Of a stretch of 32,229 nt of DNA, positions 960 through 8,344 are shown piece after piece. The notes under the pieces were generated by a model. It did not search any database and was not told where the DNA came from. It worked only from the letters and a program-made list of their open reading frames with translations. The position numbers and the translations under genes were made by a program. Numbering within the stretch: position 1 is the first letter of the stretch; the number at the start of each line of letters is the position of its first letter. This DNA is from a virus, in IMG/VR virus record IMGVR_UViG_3300020185_000163, positions 1-32,229 of that record. The stretch is one strand, 5' to 3'.

Positions 960-3494
960 TCATGTTCTTTCGTTGGCGCAGTCGAGGTACAGTTGTCCGT
1001 TTTCCGCTCTCGTAATATCTATAACTTTGTTTTCGAATACTTGACCATCCAAGACAAAATTAACTGTCAACTTTGCCGCCCCGCTAGCGCTACTGCCTGT
1101 TGCGTTGGCAGCGGAAGCAGCAGGAGTTGCAGCAGCTGCAGGGGCTGCCGCCACAGCTGTCATCGCCATAGCAAGCGGCGCAATCTTGAGTGAACTAACT
1201 TCGTTAATGGAACCCGCGATCTCAGCAAATCCGGTTTGAATAGATAACATTTTGGCTTTAGTGATGTTGCCCATAGCGGTGAACACCCCCTCCATCTTAT
1301 TAGCCATTATATTACCGACAGACGATAGGGTGGTTACTCCCAGAATCGACAACGGGTTACCTAATGCTGCTAGCGATCCCGCGAGAGTGTAAAAAGATAG
1401 GGCTAACGCGCCCACTCCCGTAGCAAATTCATATATCCCTCCGCCGGCGTTTGCAAATTCGACTAAGCTCTCGACGATCCCACCCATTCCTTCTATCAAT
1501 TGACCGATACCTGCTGCGGCGATCCCAATACCAGCACCAATCAACAGAATTGCTGCACCGAAGGGGATAAGACCGGCGGCCGCTGTTGCTGTGGCGGGAG
1601 CTAGACCCGCTAAGGCATATATAATAGCGCCAATGCCTCCAGTAATCACGCCCGTAGCGATGAGCGCTTCACCACTCAAGCCCTTAAGTGATTCCGCCAT
1701 GTTTCCAATTCCGGTGGCTGCCAAGTAGATTCCTCCACCTATCAAAACAACTGCTGCGCCAAACGATAGCATATTAAGCGCTGCTGTACCAGCTGCTTTC
1801 CCAGCCCCAGCGGTGATTTCGGTTCCTCGTTTCTGAGCGCTGTTAAGGGCTTCTTGGGCAGCTGTCTGAGCTATCAGACTTTCAGTACTCACTACTGTTC
1901 TGGCGGCGAGGATGGTCTGAATTCCATTATACAGACCCAACCCGAAGGAAAGCGCTTTCAGACCGATGGCGGCGAGTCCGATGTACTTCCCGTACTCTTG
2001 CAAAAACTCAGCAGCGCTCTCGATATACCCAATATAATCTATCATAAGTTCAGAGTTTTCAGCGAACATTGCATTTATCTTTTCTTGAACAGTCATTAGA
2101 TCTTGTGCGCGTTGCTTTTGCTCAATAAGGGCGGCAGCTGACTCATTTGAGGAGCCAGACATCATATCCATATTGCCTGACATCATAAGAGCCAAGTCAC
2201 CGACATCCGATAAACCTAGAGAGTTTGTATAAAACTGCTTTTGGTAATAAGACATATCATCAAATGACAACCCAGTGCTTGTAATAGCATCTCTGATCAT
2301 CCCAAATCGTTCTGCTGGATCTGTTGCCATCATTAGATCCATTGCGTTAACAAAGTTTCCACCCAGTGCTGCGTTAAGTTGTCCAGCCTGTTCTGCGGCT
2401 CCTTCAAAGGTATCAAACTTGTTTGTGATTGCTAACACCTTTTCCATTTCCATACCGGTGATCTTGGAGATTCTTGCAAGATCTTTGAATGCTTTGCCGG
2501 CTTGGGTACCAAACTTAGAGAACTGTGGACCCATCGATGCAAACTTTGCGGCTAGTTGTGCGGGCGGAACACCAAGAGCTTCTGCTGTTGCAGCTAGTTC
2601 TCTCTGGTATCCTTCTGCTTGCATCGATGTCATACCCATCATCTTCGTGGCATTCTGCATTCCACTTGCGAAATCCCCATTGGCGATCCCGTAGGCTCTC
2701 TCTAATGTTGTTGCTGTTTCTGCGATCGCTTCCTGTTGCGTGCCGGCTATCATTGTGAAGTCTGTGAAACCTGTGGCTAGTGCTCCATACGCTTTCGTGA
2801 CATCTTCTACTGACGCGCCATATTGGTTCATCTCTTTGTATAGAGACTTAATTTGATCTTGAGAAGCCTCCCCTAATGCATACTGCTTTTCGAAAGCCTT
2901 TGACTGTTTATCATAGCTCACTAGTAGTTCATGAATAGAGCTTACTTGCTTATCAATGAACGAGGTAGCAGCGGAGTCAGCTAATCTCATTGAGGTCGCC
3001 ATCACAGACTTCATAGCTGCGCCCATGTCTTCTGTGGCAACTTTTGCCATTAAGACCGCCTGAGTAACCTTTCTTGACAAGCCTGTCGACATATCGAGGC
3101 TTTTATTAAACTCCTTCGAAGCGTCAAGCATAGCATTTTGAGCATCTAGTCTTTTCTTAAGCTCTGTAACTTCCCGCGCACCCTCCGCTGCGGCTTCTCC
3201 TCCGAGTTGCAGTTTCTTCTCGGCTAGTTCTATTTCCCTCCTTGTTAGCTCTGCTGCAGCCTCTCGCTTGAGTATGTTACTGTCGAGGTTTGTGCCTATT
3301 TTACTCAAGCCTGCGATGTATTTCTCTTGAGCCCTAATCGAAGCTTCGATTGCTTCTACACTCTGCGTGTGCAGTTTGACTTCTTTTTCGAGTTCTGCTA
3401 TCCTCTCTTTATTTGCTTCTGCGTCTTCAGCTTTGAGTTTGGCTATCTCTTTCTGCAATTCCAACACTGAGCGGAGATTATCTTGTTCTGACAT
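960..3494 (-). CDS. Tail tape measure protein
   Basis: The 844-residue product has classic tape-measure architecture. The N-terminus (about residues 1-130) is rich in Glu, Lys, Ala and Leu and looks like coiled coil. A helical middle follows, then a Gly/Ala-rich hydrophobic region with several membrane-like segments at about residues 500-670, for example FGAAVVLIGGGIYLAATG. The C-terminus includes an Ala/Pro-rich linker and a small beta-like end. It functions inside the tail tube, setting tail length and probably helping DNA passage. At roughly 0.15 nm per residue, 844 residues would imply a tail near 125 nm; this is inference. The ATG has an AGAGGAG ribosome binding site. A terminator and a CTAYTTAW-type motif lie in the upstream gap, so this gene may start its own transcript. 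It corresponds in position to T4 gp29. Confidence 0.85.
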   Translation of the reverse strand: MSEQDNLRSVLELQKEIAKLKAEDAEANKERIAELEKEVKLHTQSVEAIEASIRAQEKYIAGLSKIGTNLDSNILKREAAAELTRREIELAEKKLQLGGEAAAEGAREVTELKKRLDAQNAMLDASKEFNKSLDMSTGLSRKVTQAVLMAKVATEDMGAAMKSVMATSMRLADSAATSFIDKQVSSIHELLVSYDKQSKAFEKQYALGEASQDQIKSLYKEMNQYGASVEDVTKAYGALATGFTDFTMIAGTQQEAIAETATTLERAYGIANGDFASGMQNATKMMGMTSMQAEGYQRELAATAEALGVPPAQLAAKFASMGPQFSKFGTQAGKAFKDLARISKITGMEMEKVLAITNKFDTFEGAAEQAGQLNAALGGNFVNAMDLMMATDPAERFGMIRDAITSTGLSFDDMSYYQKQFYTNSLGLSDVGDLALMMSGNMDMMSGSSNESAAALIEQKQRAQDLMTVQEKINAMFAENSELMIDYIGYIESAAEFLQEYGKYIGLAAIGLKALSFGLGLYNGIQTILAARTVVSTESLIAQTAAQEALNSAQKRGTEITAGAGKAAGTAALNMLSFGAAVVLIGGGIYLAATGIGNMAESLKGLSGEALIATGVITGGIGAIIYALAGLAPATATAAAGLIPFGAAILLIGAGIGIAAAGIGQLIEGMGGIVESLVEFANAGGGIYEFATGVGALALSFYTLAGSLAALGNPLSILGVTTLSSVGNIMANKMEGVFTAMGNITKAKMLSIQTGFAEIAGSINEVSSLKIAPLAMAMTAVAAAPAAAATPAASAANATGSSASGAAKLTVNFVLDGQVFENKVIDITRAENGQLYLDCANERT

Positions 3495-3566: not shown

Positions 3567-3601
3567 AAAAAAGGACAAGAAACCAACGCTCTTGTCCTTT
3601 T
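3567..3601 (-). terminator. Rho-independent terminator after the gp26-like/frameshift genes
   Basis: A 12-bp perfect stem (3569-3580 with 3590-3601) has a 9-nt loop. On the minus strand the stem ends in a run of six T residues. It separates the tail-chaperone pair from the tape-measure gene. Its A-rich and T-rich flanks would also permit function in the opposite direction, but no gene reads that way here. Confidence 0.8.
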
Positions 3602-3634
3602 CATTTATTAGCTAACTAATCTTATACTTTTATC

Positions 3635-3650
3635 AAGAGCGAATGCTCTT
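3635..3650. repeat. Perfect inverted repeat at the stop of the frameshift ORF
   Basis: AAGAGC-GAAT-GCTCTT forms a 6-bp stem with a 4-nt loop and overlaps the TAA of the downstream-frame ORF. No T run follows, so it is more likely an mRNA 3' stabilising hairpin or a helper to the nearby terminator than a terminator itself. Confidence 0.5.
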
Positions 3651-3906
3651 ATCTCTTCATTCTGTCTGCTAACTCTTTTGGCATTTGTGGTGAGTTAAAC
3701 GCCGTTAAATCTTGAGAACCACTTCTGCCCTTCGAAGACTTTTCTGCAGCCTCCTGTTCCATCTCAAGTTGCTTAACGAGCCTCTTAACAAACCAAAGCC
3801 TCAAACCAATTGGCAAATTGTATGCCTCTGAAAACGACCAACCGCCTGAATATTTTAAAAAGAAGAACTGCTCATAAATGTTCTCCATATACTCAGCGGT
3901 CAGGCC
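3649..3906 (-). CDS. Downstream-frame extension of the gp26-like tail protein, probably made by frameshifting
   Basis: This reading frame encodes 85 residues after the slip site and begins GLTAEYMENIYEQFF. It continues with a GGWSFSEAYNLPIGLRLWFV stretch and a charged tail. Read as a separate gene it would need a TTG at 3969, deep inside the upstream gene, or an ATG at 3888. Neither has a convincing ribosome binding site. The frame joins the upstream gene by a +1 (or -2) shift at the seven-T run 3907-3913. Its position just before the tape-measure gene matches the lambda G/T tail-assembly chaperone arrangement. A joined product would be 279 + 85 = 364 residues for a +1 shift. The alternative is a single fused gene with a one-base homopolymer error in the sequence. 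Confidence 0.7.
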   Translation of the reverse strand, partial: GLTAEYMENIYEQFFFLKYSGGWSFSEAYNLPIGLRLWFVKRLVKQLEMEQEAAEKSSKGRSGSQDLTAFNSPQMPKELADRMKR

Positions 3907-3935
3907 AAAAAAAGTCCGCTGATAGCGGCACCTCC
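3893..3935 (-). promoter_or_regulatory. Candidate programmed frameshift site with stimulatory elements
   Basis: The sense strand reads GAC TTT TTT TGG in the upstream frame. The seven Ts occupy 3907-3913. A TTT codon in the P site can re-pair perfectly after a +1 slip, moving ribosomes into the downstream frame. A Shine-Dalgarno-like GGAGGT lies at 3930-3935, 16 nt before the run. A small hairpin, CCGCT-ATC-AGCGG on the sense strand (3916-3928), sits two bases before it. An alternative 7-bp stem (3916-3922 with 3893-3899) would place the run in its loop and the zero-frame TGA in its 3' arm. Confidence 0.55.
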
Positions 3936-4744
3936 ATGTCCTGTTCGTGACCGCACTCTCCGCACTCAAAGTTTTGAGTTAGATCGACGTTTGGTGCCAC
4001 GTGGCGGTAAGATGAGCGCAAGTGGCGAGCATCAAGGGATGGAATGTTCTCAATTAGATAACTGACTGCTTGCATTGAATCGTCTCCGTTAACAGAGACA
4101 ACCATATTACGAATTTGTGTTGTGATAGCCTGCTCCGGACGCTTTCTCTTACGAGCCGTCTCAAGCTGGTTAACCATATTCTTTTCATCTACACCGGTTA
4201 AGAGCCTAAACGTGGTCTGCACCCTAGTCTTCGGCAAAGTTGTTGTAAATGTGCCGTCGTCATTATCGATGATACCTAATGCTTCAGCAGTATCTCCGCC
4301 ATATACGTCAGCGTCACTCAAATCAAAGTTATATTCTTGAACCGCTCCACAGGATGGGCAGCCAACCTTAGTCTTGTATTCATTTCCATAGCCGGAAATA
4401 CGAGCAGCAATAATAATTGCGTTACGATCTCCTACGAGCATTGAATCAGGATTTATTCTCTTATTGACAATAAGGCTCTGAATAACACGCTCAATAGCAA
4501 CGCCGCTCTTTAGAAGAGTTCTAGACGTTAGCATATCCTCTTCTTTTGCAGTCATCTGCTTAATCTCAATTGTGGTCTGCCCATGTAGTGGGTGGGTTTC
4601 TGGATAGAACCTACCTCCCGATGGCATCTCCACAAACTCTGTTGGAACAACAAACGAGAAACCTGGGGTTTCTTGATGAGCTTGTGGAGGGGCAGAGTTA
4701 TCTTGTGGGGTCGGGTTCCCCATTCGATCTCTATTCCGTGACAA
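3893..4744 (-). CDS. T4 gp26-like baseplate hub / tail assembly protein
   Basis: The 283-residue protein has two CxxC pairs (Cys129/132 in VGCPSCG and Cys261/264 in ECGECGHE), suggesting a zinc ribbon split across the chain. The C-terminus is ADFFWPDR; to my knowledge an FFWP ending is common in the gp26-like baseplate family of T4-type phages. The N-terminal half has a conserved-looking MPSGGRFYP and TAKEEDML pattern. The start at 4744 is TTG, chosen because GAGGTG lies six bases upstream. The internal ATG at 4723 is the alternative but has only a weak GAGA upstream. The gene sits between the tail tube and tape-measure genes, where assembly chaperones are typical. Its last codons hold the candidate frameshift site. 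Whether it is a hub component or a chaperone is uncertain. Confidence 0.75.
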   Translation of the reverse strand: MSRNRDRMGNPTPQDNSAPPQAHQETPGFSFVVPTEFVEMPSGGRFYPETHPLHGQTTIEIKQMTAKEEDMLTSRTLLKSGVAIERVIQSLIVNKRINPDSMLVGDRNAIIIAARISGYGNEYKTKVGCPSCGAVQEYNFDLSDADVYGGDTAEALGIIDNDDGTFTTTLPKTRVQTTFRLLTGVDEKNMVNQLETARKRKRPEQAITTQIRNMVVSVNGDDSMQAVSYLIENIPSLDARHLRSSYRHVAPNVDLTQNFECGECGHEQDMEVPLSADFFWPDR

Positions 4745-4787: not shown

Positions 4788-5375
4788 TTAGACTTTAAAG
4801 AACTCTTGACCGCCACCAACTGTTGCAGCTGATGGACCGGCTGTCTCGACGCGAGCCCAGTCATACCGAAGACTAACAGAGATCTCTGTCAAATCATCGT
4901 TGCCGTACTCTAGGTTGTCACCATACTTGACTTCTGTAACAAAAGAGTTCCATAGTGTCCAAGTTTCAAGTGGGTTACCATCTGAATCAAGCTGAGTAAT
5001 GATAACTGTACCAAGAGCCGCTGCAGACTTCGCCTTAGAGATACTTGTCATTGTCTCGGCGTCTGTAGGGGGAGTATACCCGGAGCCCTGAATGATTGCT
5101 GATAAGGTAGCAGTCAGATCTGGATCAACTGGGTCGACCATAGTCACAGTAATTGGTTCCCAAGTAACATTACCTGGGTAGTAAAAAGTGTGGTTTAGGT
5201 ACTTATGCTCAGCTGCGTTAATTGCAAATGATGGCTTTCCACAAGACTTGGCGTACCAAAGCTTAGCTCCACCTTGAGCAGCTTGAATTCCTTGGAATTC
5301 AACAGAGAATCTAAAGTTTCTCTTTGGATCGTTGAGAGAAGCGTTCTCTCCGAAATTTTCAGACCAGAATGGCAT
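4788..5375 (-). CDS. Tail tube protein (T4 gp19-like)
   Basis: The 195-residue product starts MPFWSENFGENASLNDPKR and continues with RFSVEFQGI. It contains the WYAKSCGKPSF and KYLNHTFYYPGNVTWEPITV segments that typify gp19-family tube proteins. An NSFVTEVKYG segment and a C-terminal beta region (EISVSLRYDWA) follow. It polymerises into the inner tube of the contractile tail. Its place directly after the sheath gene is the standard order. The ATG has an AGGAG ribosome binding site. A hairpin and a CACTACTTAAA motif lie in the 65-bp gap upstream, so it may be transcribed independently of the sheath gene as well as with it. Confidence 0.93.
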   Translation of the reverse strand: MPFWSENFGENASLNDPKRNFRFSVEFQGIQAAQGGAKLWYAKSCGKPSFAINAAEHKYLNHTFYYPGNVTWEPITVTMVDPVDPDLTATLSAIIQGSGYTPPTDAETMTSISKAKSAAALGTVIITQLDSDGNPLETWTLWNSFVTEVKYGDNLEYGNDDLTEISVSLRYDWARVETAGPSAATVGGGQEFFKV

Positions 5376-5413: not shown

Positions 5414-5414
5414 T

Positions 5415-5432
5415 CGGGGGGAAATTCCCCCG
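5415..5432 (-). terminator. GC-rich hairpin between sheath and tube genes
   Basis: CGGGGG pairs with CCCCCG across a short A/T loop, eight bases after the sheath stop codon. The sense strand lacks a strong T run after the stem. It could be a weak terminator or attenuator, or an mRNA end protector, that sets the sheath to tube ratio. Confidence 0.4.
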
Positions 5433-5440
5433 ACATTTTA

Positions 5441-8293
5441 TCAATCATCAAACGAGGCACCGGTTGAGGCAACCACGAAGTCAATCGCGATGTACTCAAT
5501 GGCACGTGCTGGTTTGACCATAATCTTCGCATACATGATGTTCTGATCAATAAGGTCTGGGGTTGTTGTTGTCTCGTCGAGAATCAAGCGGTAATCAGTG
5601 ATACCGAACTGAACCTTAACATTTGCTAGGAACGGCTCAACTAGTGACCTAAAGCGGTTCCAAGTAGACTGCACGTTCTGCTCGAATAGAACCTGAGTAG
5701 AGAGAATGGAAATCTGCTTCTTAAGGTAGATTACCAATCGTCTTACATTGATTCTATCAAGAGCCGACTGGTTCTCCTGAAGAGTCTTCTGTCCAAACGC
5801 TACAATGCCGGTAGAAGGGAAAGAAGCGATTGGGTTAATGCTAGCCTCGTACAACTTGTCTCTCTCCTTGGATGTTAGTCTCTCAGTTACGTTCGTAACT
5901 GGGATTCCTGCTGCACCATCAGAAAGACCGCCGCGATTGAAGCCGGCTGGAGCATACCAAAGGTGGGTGGAAGCCTGAGAACTAGCTAAGACTCCCAACA
6001 TTGCGACAGAAGGCGGAATCCAGAGAAGGCGTCCGCTAGCGTCGTCACGAGTCTGAACCCATGGGTAGAAGGTCGCTCCATAAGAGGAGTCAATTCTTCT
6101 GCCCTTAAGCGCTTGGGCTACGGAATCTACACCGGAGCCGCGACGAGCCGCTCTAGATGCGTTGTATGCCTCGTGAGCAGGGGTGTAAACATCCGAAAGG
6201 TCGATAATCGACATTGCGTCTGCGCGATCCTCACACACATTCACCAAGTGAGTCGTAAGGGTATCATTAGTCAACCCAGGGACGGTCATTAGGTTCATAT
6301 CCAAGGACTCAGGGTCAGCAACTGTATCGATTGATCTCTTGAGAGTGTAGTACGGAGAACTAGTTGTCTCAGAAGCGCTGGTCAGTCCTGCGTTGTAGAA
6401 AGGATCTGGCTTGATAAGATCGAGTCCATCAAAACCACCGAATACCGGAGAAGTGAACCTGTCGTAACCTGCATCTAGCAGAGTCTTATATGTTCCGCCG
6501 GCGTTTATACTAACAGCATCGCCGCTGGCAAAAGAGCCAGACTCGTAATAATATCCTGTGCCACTGTTCTTTCTAACATCGTTTAGAGAGAAGACATATG
6601 CGTACTCTGAGCCAGCTGGGGCGCTAGTAGAAGTGTCCACGCTCTGTAGAAATCTTCCATCCAACATACCGTGGACATCTCCAACACTCAAGTCCGCTCT
6701 TGTGGAAGCAGCAGTTCGGGTGTTCATCATTCCAAAGTATGCGTTTCTTGCGTCAGCTAGTCCGCCATCAGAAGCGCTAACGCGCAACCTAACAGACGGG
6801 AATACTAGTGAACCGGATACACCAACTGCTCCGCTGGACTCCAAGACGCTAGCTCCGGCACCTACAAGAGTAGAGCCCCAGTGGATCATTCTCCCGACAG
6901 GAGCGACGGCGAGGTCAATAATTTTCGCATCTGAGTACTTGGGAGGACCAAAGTAACCAAATGGCAAGTACAGTGCATTTGTTGCACCCTCTTCCACATC
7001 AGGGTTGCACTCAACATAGACATACTTAGACTGACTCTGGTAGTCGCCATAGGTCTTTAGTCTGCGCTGTGTCTCATCCCATACAGAGTACATGTTACCG
7101 ATTTTCCTAGCAACAAAGTTAGGAGAAGATGGGTCGAGAGTAAGGTTGTCGAACCTCTCAAGAACTTGCACGCGGTTATCGGTGTCATTGAGTCGACGAA
7201 GAACCACAGAGAACGTTCCATAATCTGTTGTTGTGGTTGTAGACGCTCTGATTTTTTCGATAGACACCTTGACGTTCTTGTTTAGCCACTCTCCGTGTCC
7301 TCGTCCAATGAGGCGGAATAGTTTCTGCTGATCTTGCGGCTGCCAACCGGCTGCCACACCATCCAGATCCTGACCAATAAACCAGCCAGTGTTTGCTTCT
7401 TGGTGTGGGACTCGGTTCTCGTGAGGTCCCGTTGTCGCGGCAGAGTCTAAAGCAAGAGGTAGAATTACCGCGTGCTTAGTTCCGGTGTCCAATGATGCAT
7501 CTCGGACTTCCTGCTCGAAAGTCTGACCTAGCCAATATGGAGCGAAGGAAGAAGAGGGGTAAAACTCGCCCTGGTCTGATGCCAGTTGCGGGTTTGTACT
7601 AAATACTTTACGGATGAAGGTGTCAGCGCTATCATCAAAGCCAAACTTGATTTTCTTGTTCCAAGAGCCGATAGAGCTAGTTACCACTGCGGTAATCAAC
7701 CCATCAGACCCAATGTCCATAACTTTCCCGATGCCCTGAGCAGGCACGACCGTACCAGAGCCGATTAGGTTACCACTTAGCTGAATGGAGGCAGACTTGT
7801 TTAGATAGAAAACAGCAGCCAAGCTACCAGTACCGATTCCGCCGGCGGCAATGCTGAAAGAAGCACTTGGGAACAGGAACAAGCCGTAGGCTCCTCCGTT
7901 CTCTGCCAAAGTAGTTGCAGGATCCTTAACAGTCTCCCAACCAGCTTTTCCGTCTGCAGTTGCGTCTGCGGACTCTTCACCCAATAGGCGGATATAAGTA
8001 AGAGGGGCAACGTTGGAAACTAAAAATGCCTTTGCTGCGTATGTTCCGTACATGGGAGACTGATAGTTACCATCTCTGGATACATCTCCGCCAGCACCAC
8101 CGGGTACTGTGTCACCAAACATCTCAACAAATTCTGAATAAGACTGAACCTTGATCGGCTGCAGTGCTAGTCCGCGCGTGGAACGACCGACAACGACTGG
8201 TCCAATCGCGTCCGATGATCTCGGGATAAATGAGTTATCAATCTCGTTGATAAACACCCCAGGAGATACAAATTTAAAACTCTTTACTGACAT
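5441..8293 (-). CDS. Tail sheath protein (T4 gp18-like)
   Basis: The ATG at 8293 is chosen because AGAGGGAA lies just upstream; an in-frame start at 8338 has no such site. The 950-residue product opens MSVKSFKFVSPGVFINEID, the usual sheath N-terminus, followed by GPVVVGRSTRG and the FVEMFG segment. The C-terminal 150 residues contain the typical helices and the ending NRFRSLVEPFLANVKVQFGI and IEYIAIDFVV. It forms the contractile outer sheath. At 950 residues it is much longer than T4 gp18 (659), so large extra surface domains are probably inserted in the middle (about residues 150-650), rich in Ser, Gly and Thr. It lies next to the tube gene as expected. Confidence 0.95.
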   Translation of the reverse strand: MSVKSFKFVSPGVFINEIDNSFIPRSSDAIGPVVVGRSTRGLALQPIKVQSYSEFVEMFGDTVPGGAGGDVSRDGNYQSPMYGTYAAKAFLVSNVAPLTYIRLLGEESADATADGKAGWETVKDPATTLAENGGAYGLFLFPSASFSIAAGGIGTGSLAAVFYLNKSASIQLSGNLIGSGTVVPAQGIGKVMDIGSDGLITAVVTSSIGSWNKKIKFGFDDSADTFIRKVFSTNPQLASDQGEFYPSSSFAPYWLGQTFEQEVRDASLDTGTKHAVILPLALDSAATTGPHENRVPHQEANTGWFIGQDLDGVAAGWQPQDQQKLFRLIGRGHGEWLNKNVKVSIEKIRASTTTTTDYGTFSVVLRRLNDTDNRVQVLERFDNLTLDPSSPNFVARKIGNMYSVWDETQRRLKTYGDYQSQSKYVYVECNPDVEEGATNALYLPFGYFGPPKYSDAKIIDLAVAPVGRMIHWGSTLVGAGASVLESSGAVGVSGSLVFPSVRLRVSASDGGLADARNAYFGMMNTRTAASTRADLSVGDVHGMLDGRFLQSVDTSTSAPAGSEYAYVFSLNDVRKNSGTGYYYESGSFASGDAVSINAGGTYKTLLDAGYDRFTSPVFGGFDGLDLIKPDPFYNAGLTSASETTSSPYYTLKRSIDTVADPESLDMNLMTVPGLTNDTLTTHLVNVCEDRADAMSIIDLSDVYTPAHEAYNASRAARRGSGVDSVAQALKGRRIDSSYGATFYPWVQTRDDASGRLLWIPPSVAMLGVLASSQASTHLWYAPAGFNRGGLSDGAAGIPVTNVTERLTSKERDKLYEASINPIASFPSTGIVAFGQKTLQENQSALDRINVRRLVIYLKKQISILSTQVLFEQNVQSTWNRFRSLVEPFLANVKVQFGITDYRLILDETTTTPDLIDQNIMYAKIMVKPARAIEYIAIDFVVASTGASFDD

Positions 8294-8344
8294 ATTTAGT
8301 TTTCCCTCTTTATAAAACGGTATTAATTGATGTTTCAATCATAC

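Follow-up and report, generated by a model that had tools for sequence, protein, structure and literature searches.

Two open reading frames overlap just upstream of the tape-measure gene in the viral DNA analysed here (32,229 nt, referred to throughout as the window), and they raise the question of whether the second is expressed only as a frameshifted continuation of the first. A first-pass annotation had proposed that ribosomes shift by +1 (or -2) at a seven-T run, so that a gp26-like protein is fused to a tail-chaperone extension. The overlap itself is as claimed, with the open ORF2 frame spanning 3649-3969 (-), in +1 relative to ORF1 (Table 1). ORF1 begins at a TTG with AGAGG 6 nt upstream, and many relatives have an ATG (MSRN..) at the same place. 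A ribosome passing into ORF2 would gain ∼85 residues after the shift, yielding an ORF1-ORF2 fusion of ∼364 aa. The T run is exactly seven (3913-3907) in the context GAC TTT TTT TGG, and the junction (3935-3893, -) reads GGAGGT G CCGCTATCAGCGG AC TTT TTT TGG CCT GAC CGC TGA. The 3' end of GGAGGT lies 16 nt before the T run, again as had been claimed, and GGAGG lies 17 nt from the run. The spacing of 12 nt from the P-site codon to the zero-frame stop is kept in 95/134 relatives.

Table 1. Coordinates of the ORF1/ORF2 junction, its putative signals and the flanking tail genes in the window.
Feature	Coordinates	Strand	Description	Family or remark
ORF1, gp26-like short form	3893..4744	-	283 aa, ends ...SADFFWPDR	PF12322, phrog_150
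ORF2, +1-frame extension	3649..3909	-	begins FGLTAEYMENIYEQFFFLKY...	+1 in relatives; no usable start codon
Slip site TTT TTT TGG	3905..3913	-	proposed P-site TTT 3910-3908, A-site TGG 3907-3905	
GGAGGT, Shine-Dalgarno-like	3930..3935	-	upstream of slip site	GAG codon 46/46
Hairpin CCGC-TATCA-GCGG	3916..3928	-	between GGAGGT and slip site	
Zero-frame stop TGA	3893..3895	-	12 nt after P-site codon, following W P D R	
Tape-measure-position gene	960..3494	-	844 aa, directly downstream	
Tail tube gene, gp19-like	4788..5375	-	directly upstream	phrog_4542, E=1.3e-23

The tail tube gene also matches PF06841 (E=8.9e-6), slightly below the family cut-off. The gene in the tape-measure position has no family match of its own among Pfam and PHROG profiles; the gene in this position carries a tape measure annotation in immuto and LIS04. 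Between ORF2 and the tape-measure gene lies a terminator-like hairpin of 14 pairs followed by a T tail (3568-3602, -), and it is possible therefore that the chaperone pair is transcribed partly apart from the tape measure. Further upstream, the tail sheath gene (5441-8338, -) encodes 965 aa against 496 positions in the phrog_23 sheath profile, a roughly twofold length that suggests a large inserted domain, and a GC-rich inverted repeat, TCGGGGGGAAATTCCCCCGA, is present at 5414-5433 (+) between the tube and sheath genes.

A scan with ORF1 as the query recovered 80 viral contigs; each of the 80 has a single GCGGA[CT]TT[TC]TTTTGG where ORF1 ends and keeps ORF2 in the +1 frame, the run being T7 in 74 and TTCTTTT in 6. 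With ORF2 alone as the query, the junction is TTTTTTTGG at 77 of 80 loci and TTCTTTTGG at the other 3, with ORF2 in +1 throughout. With a profile of more distant ORF1 sequences, the 80 loci divide into 65 with TTTTTTTGG, 6 with TTCTTTTGG and 9 whose junction was read as TTTCTTTGG, and all 80 place ORF2 in +1. The same +1 junction, TTT_TGG or CTT_TGG, is present in all 240 loci of these three viral scans, which have contigs in common such that the 240 are not all distinct. In bacterial and archaeal assemblies, at 23-53% ORF1 identity, exactly TTTTTTTGG with ORF2 in +1 was found at 14 of 16 loci; the remaining two carry TTTTTTTTCCC and TTCTTTCAT with ORF2 still in +1, and two of the sixteen (L104 and L105) are copies of each other. 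Overlap between scans was handled by clustering the sites into 134 representatives, a list that is pattern-selected, although the underlying scans were not. The P-site codon is TTT in 126 representatives and CTT in 8, and TGG follows in all 134; elsewhere in ORF1, TTT makes up 75% of Phe codons. Because the junction recurs at every locus of each viral scan and at nearly all of the distant loci, its conservation is far beyond chance, and the overlap is a real observation. The alignment of related phages suggested by the first-pass annotation as a check on the overlap and the T run shows that the overlap is conserved, as is the run except in 15 of the 134 representatives.

A referee might object that the two frames are separated by an assembly or sequencing error in the homopolymer, or that ORF2 is a decayed gene. 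Homopolymer runs are error-prone, and a wrong T count had been recognised from the outset as a possible refutation. However, the frame relation is the same in hundreds of contigs as well as in the isolates Mel-JY01, immuto and SP-15, and it is kept in variants that lack a long T run, such that this explanation is all but excluded.

A second objection is that ORF2 is simply a separate small gene, translated from an internal start or by reinitiation near the ORF1 stop. In its favour, an ATG is present at ORF2 residue 8 in most close relatives, and the extension ORF may have an ATG of its own in other lineages (Cygsa01, possibly S-SCSM1). In the window, however, ORF2 has no start codon preceded by a Shine-Dalgarno sequence, and the sole ATG ahead of its conserved core is 22 nt beyond the slip codon. 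Up to ORF2 residue 25, the +1 frame contains no ATG, GTG or TTG in 12 of the 134 representatives and no ATG in 34; 116 are without a start preceded by a Shine-Dalgarno sequence, and in 25 the +1 frame opens just 12 nt ahead of the first ORF2 codon. The residue-8 codon is ATA, ATT or AAT in many relatives, and a separate gene would leave unexplained both the fixed slip codons and the conserved residues upstream of the ATG. We consider this reading very unlikely; the earlier claim that ORF2 lacks a credible ribosome binding site holds. In the GenBank records of SP-15 (L085, 2229-2448), LIS04 (L087, 2208-2439), Deifobo (L092, 2313-2537) and S-RIM8 (L096, 3181-3369), the extension ORF is either not annotated or given an internal ATG as its start.

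Synonymous identity in ORF1 averages 0.45 over 46 diverged sequences and rises to near 1 at the junction, where the codons GAG (46/46), CCG (45/46), GCG (46/46) and the second TTT (46/46) are kept, CCG and GCG being minority codons elsewhere. Of 251 sites, 187 have GGAGG at -22 relative to the first Phe codon and another 34 have it at -28 (221/251 together). The CCGC/GCGG arms are paired in 95% of cells, compared with 26-50% when slid, and a GC-matched synonymous-codon test gave a mean z of -0.77 (Fisher 6e-11, albeit with sequences that are not independent); the covariation of the hairpin was not significant by shuffles, the variation being too low. The hairpin is kept in most relatives, and some distant members have others in the same place (GCTCCC-TCT-GGGAGC, AACCGTC-CCGAT-GACGGTT and GCCC-ATT-GGGC), but it is absent from some distant T7 members (L231, L264, L270). 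It is probably a common but dispensable stimulator, although that role is inferred. The second of the two hairpins claimed in the first-pass annotation is a long stem in the window mRNA (3830-3907, -) that encloses the zero-frame stop (-26 kcal/mol), and relatives do not preserve it in any defined form. We make no claim for a conserved pseudoknot or hairpin downstream: the 81 nt past the slip site do fold more stably than synonymous controls matched for GC (mean z -1.24), but a structure common to the relatives did not emerge.

For the T7 majority, the chief competing explanation is stem-loop-assisted transcriptional slippage, in which RNA polymerase omits one U of U7 after a GC-rich hairpin. 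The hairpin, AC and T7 of the window score as terminator-like by pattern, and it is a caveat to our interpretation that this hairpin adjacent to a homopolymer run looks like both an intrinsic terminator and a stem-loop transcriptional-slippage element. A Roseiflexus IS630 element uses a hairpin beside its tract (PMC5009743), and dropping one U would yield the same fusion protein. Several observations count against it. ORF2 remains in +1 in the 15/134 representatives in which the T run is broken (TTCTTTT or TTTCTTT), and the hairpin of L232, stronger than any other, precedes a broken run, TTTCTTT. C can occupy the wobble position of the first Phe codon but never that of the second, GGAGG plays no part in transcription, and the distant T7 members named above have no hairpin. 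On balance, we regard transcriptional slippage as unlikely.

A -2 ribosomal shift in the style of phage Mu, which the first-pass annotation had left open, would reach the same frame with one extra residue, and T7 permits re-pairing either way. With TTC TTT TGG, however, it would place tRNA-Phe on UCU, a middle-base mismatch, and re-pairing is also poor with TTT CTT TGG, whereas +1 re-pairing is possible in every variant of the scans (UUU_U to UUU or CUU_U to UUU). Both a -2 shift and polymerase slippage need a longer T run, which those 15 representatives do not have, and both are therefore disfavoured; the +1 direction is favoured over either because the TTCTTTTGG and TTTCTTTGG variants fit a P-site +1 slip better. 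A -2 shift is thus very unlikely. The predicted +1 junction peptide is ...SADFFGLTAEYMENIYEQ... (DFFGLT), and the -2 form would have one more residue.

Our preferred reading is that the long form of a tail chaperone pair arises when the P-site tRNA slips +1 on the ribosome, which we consider likely in the absence of protein or reporter data. The majority of ribosomes would terminate four codons past the slip site to give the gp26-like short form, and some would slip +1 while tRNA-Phe occupies the second UUU and UGG (Trp) is in the A site. Re-pairing of this tRNA from UUU to the overlapping UUU would let reading restart at GGC, adding the extension. Behind the ribosome, GGAGGU would base-pair with 16S rRNA, and the small hairpin would probably shorten the distance between GGAGGU and the slip site or pull the mRNA outward, favouring a forward slip; its folding would place GGAGG at roughly the distance seen in initiation, and its refolding behind the ribosome may pull the mRNA in the +1 direction. 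Both forms would then act like lambda gpG and gpGT, each binding the tape measure, with the extension recruiting tail-tube subunits. Ribosomal slippage, its rate, the roles of GGAGGU and the hairpin, and the binding partners are all inferred from sequence alone; a set product ratio and absence from virions would be expected by analogy with other G/GT-type pairs. Further caveats are that GGAGG is farther from the slip site than in RF2, and that the hairpin is not universal among distant members.

That a programmed frameshift joins the gp26-like ORF1 to ORF2, and is real and conserved, is likely, albeit on evidence that is entirely computational with no protein measured. Strong support for this central claim of the first-pass annotation comes from conservation, from the lack of ORF2 start codons, from constraint on synonymous sites and from a fold match obtained independently. 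ORF1 matches PF12322 (T4_baseplate) with E=7.6e-18 (65.4 bits, curated cut-off 24.5) and the phrog_150 baseplate hub family with E=4.6e-20. The top PDB match by Foldseek to its AlphaFold model (pLDDT 91, 51 aligned sequences) is 2ob9, the HK97 tail assembly chaperone (probability 0.72, E 0.38), which is not significant alone. Realignment gave Z 5.7 for 2ob9 (84 aligned, rmsd 4.7) and Z 5.4 for Bacillus subtilis YqbN, 3klu (79 aligned, rmsd 3.3), which we take to be an XkdN-type tail chaperone. These are the two best structures, the next row being at Z 3.3; the Z values are modest and cover only ORF1 residues ∼23-120. A PDB sequence search gave no relevant match, and a single-sequence structure model of the ORF1-ORF2 fusion was useless (pLDDT 35). 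As the two best structure matches are the HK97 chaperone and YqbN, and the genes lie between tail tube and tape measure, ORF1 and ORF2 are most likely a lambda G/GT-type tail assembly chaperone pair of a T4-superfamily myophage, although the binding partners are inferred.

ORF2 of the window has no direct match to phrog_634, the gp51 C-terminal (hub assembly catalyst) family. A profile-profile comparison with the set of cyanophage and T4 extensions gave 88%, with E 3.5e-6 for that single comparison, and the T4 gp51 C-terminus alone gave no score against the ORF2 profile. The connection is weak by sequence and rests mainly on position behind a PF12322 domain ending FF; similarly, a direct BLASTP of the window ORF1 against cyanophage gp26 gave no match, and that link rests on PF12322. 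ORF2 (3712-3888, -) scores 15.6 bits against DUF6760 (PF20546), below the cut-off of 27, and a link to contractile injection systems through this family was dropped, the matches in control genomes all being below cut-off. Were the likeness real, the same chaperone extension could possibly occur in other contractile systems.

The two-ORF design recurs in many large phages with contractile tails, T4-related cyanophages among them. It is found with a +1 relation in Mel-JY01 (T7GG), immuto (CTT_TGG), LR756508, SP-15, LIS04, GXN1 and BRock, the slip codon being uncertain in SP-15, LIS04 and GXN1. We note that these three (L085, L087, L088) have CCCGATT in common a few codons past FF, with ORF2 in +1, and their slip codon may differ from TTT_TGG. 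A -1 relation at U_UUU_UU[CU] is present in RAS14, Serratia BF, Deifobo, Atu_ph07, LR756511, Vibrio Bakedbeans and cyanophage S-RIM8. The S-RIM8 gp26 scan returned 80 loci on contigs of T4-like cyanophages. In each of them the end of ORF1 carries TTTTTTC in the -1 register, the classic -1 heptamer U_UUU_UUC, and a gp51-type ORF lies in the -1 frame; a pattern picked out 76 of these ORFs, and reading the other 4. A start codon is lacking from the tested stretch in 19 of the 80 loci, and in 75 no start is preceded by a Shine-Dalgarno sequence. A viral scan with the gp26 of Vibrio phage Bakedbeans found no relatives.

T4 has been stated to be an exception to G/GT frameshifting. Its gp26 and gp51 both match PF12322, gp51 being longer by ∼48 residues, and phrog_634 is matched both by residues 147-246 of T4 gp51 (E 1.2e-23) and by the cyanophage -1 ORF (E 1.2e-30); T4 therefore appears to hold both forms as separate genes. 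Sullivan et al. report that cyanophage gp51 lacks the first ∼200 residues of T4 gp51 (PMC3037559). With no protein measured, it is nonetheless likely that this 'truncated gp51' would be what frameshifting adds to the end of gp26, so that the ∼200 'missing' N-terminal residues would be gp26 itself. A bolder reading, which we also judge probable, is that the gp26/gp51 family is the T4-superfamily version of lambda G/GT, with at least three modes of expression: +1 in the window phage and its wide marine clade, -1 in cyanophages and several jumbo phages, and two paralogous genes in T4. T4 would then be no exception to the G/GT rule, cyanophage gp51 would not be truncated, and the +1 cassette of Shine-Dalgarno sequence, hairpin and UUU_UGG would be a new +1-stimulator arrangement at a sense codon. 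We found no report of gp26-family frameshifting in the open-licence PMC literature searched, and an earlier report elsewhere is not excluded. The first-pass annotation had expected a +1 shift on a gp26-type protein to be unusual, and this failed in part: the gp26 type seems to serve the T4 superfamily as its chaperone family, the pattern is widespread beyond the window phage, and a prediction in HSTV-2 (below) provides precedent. If this reading is true, many annotations would need correcting, and the direction of frameshifting would have changed during evolution within one family with the product design unchanged.

Among known systems, RF2 resembles the cassette in its +1 direction, its CUU_U or UUU_U shift codons (the RF2 shift site and a known minority form; PMC5009743) and its upstream Shine-Dalgarno sequence. 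It differs in that the window A-site codon is the sense codon UGG and not UGA, and in that the window Shine-Dalgarno sequence is much further upstream, usually with a hairpin between. The cassette works like the RF2 type but is not a member, because of this A-site and because GGAGG is at -22 or -28 and not a few nucleotides from the slip codon. The Roseiflexus IS630 element also has a GC-rich hairpin just upstream of a homopolymer run, and loss of one base restores frame; it differs in acting at transcription and in the composition of the run. The Mu-type -2 shift does not fit the window family, whose TTCTTTTGG and TTTCTTTGG variants disallow -2 re-pairing. For the haloarchaeal myovirus HSTV-2, a +1 tail-chaperone frameshift is predicted (cited in PMC5009743).

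The cyanophage gp26 and 'baseplate hub assembly catalyst' gp51 are similarly arranged, with an extension ORF that overlaps gp26 directly at its end and prolongs it by frameshift, but theirs is -1 at U_UUU_UUC where the window has +1, and the ORF2 sequences are merely remotely alike. The T4 gp26 and gp51 hub assembly chaperones belong to the same PF12322 family, gp51 being a gp26 paralogue with a C-terminal extension; the long form comes from a separate gene without a frameshift in T4, and by a probable frameshift in the window. Hardies et al. describe a two-gene G/GT tail chaperonin in Bacillus phage 0305phi8-36 (PMC2147016), in which two paralogous genes encode the short and long forms, the arrangement that we propose for T4; this chaperonin is of another protein family and has no frameshift, but it provides a precedent for the two-gene step. 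With lambda gpG/gpGT, HK97, P2 and Mu, the window differs in its PF12322 family, its zinc-ribbon-like CxxC pairs and length of 283 aa, its +1 shift at UUU_UGG and its long contractile-tail, T4-type context. It is alike in having two overlapping ORFs between the tail tube and tape-measure genes, and a short form with a frameshifted long form. The main value of the comparison is that it unifies gp26/gp51 with G/GT: gp26 would be G and gp51 would be GT, suggesting a role for these poorly understood T4 proteins.
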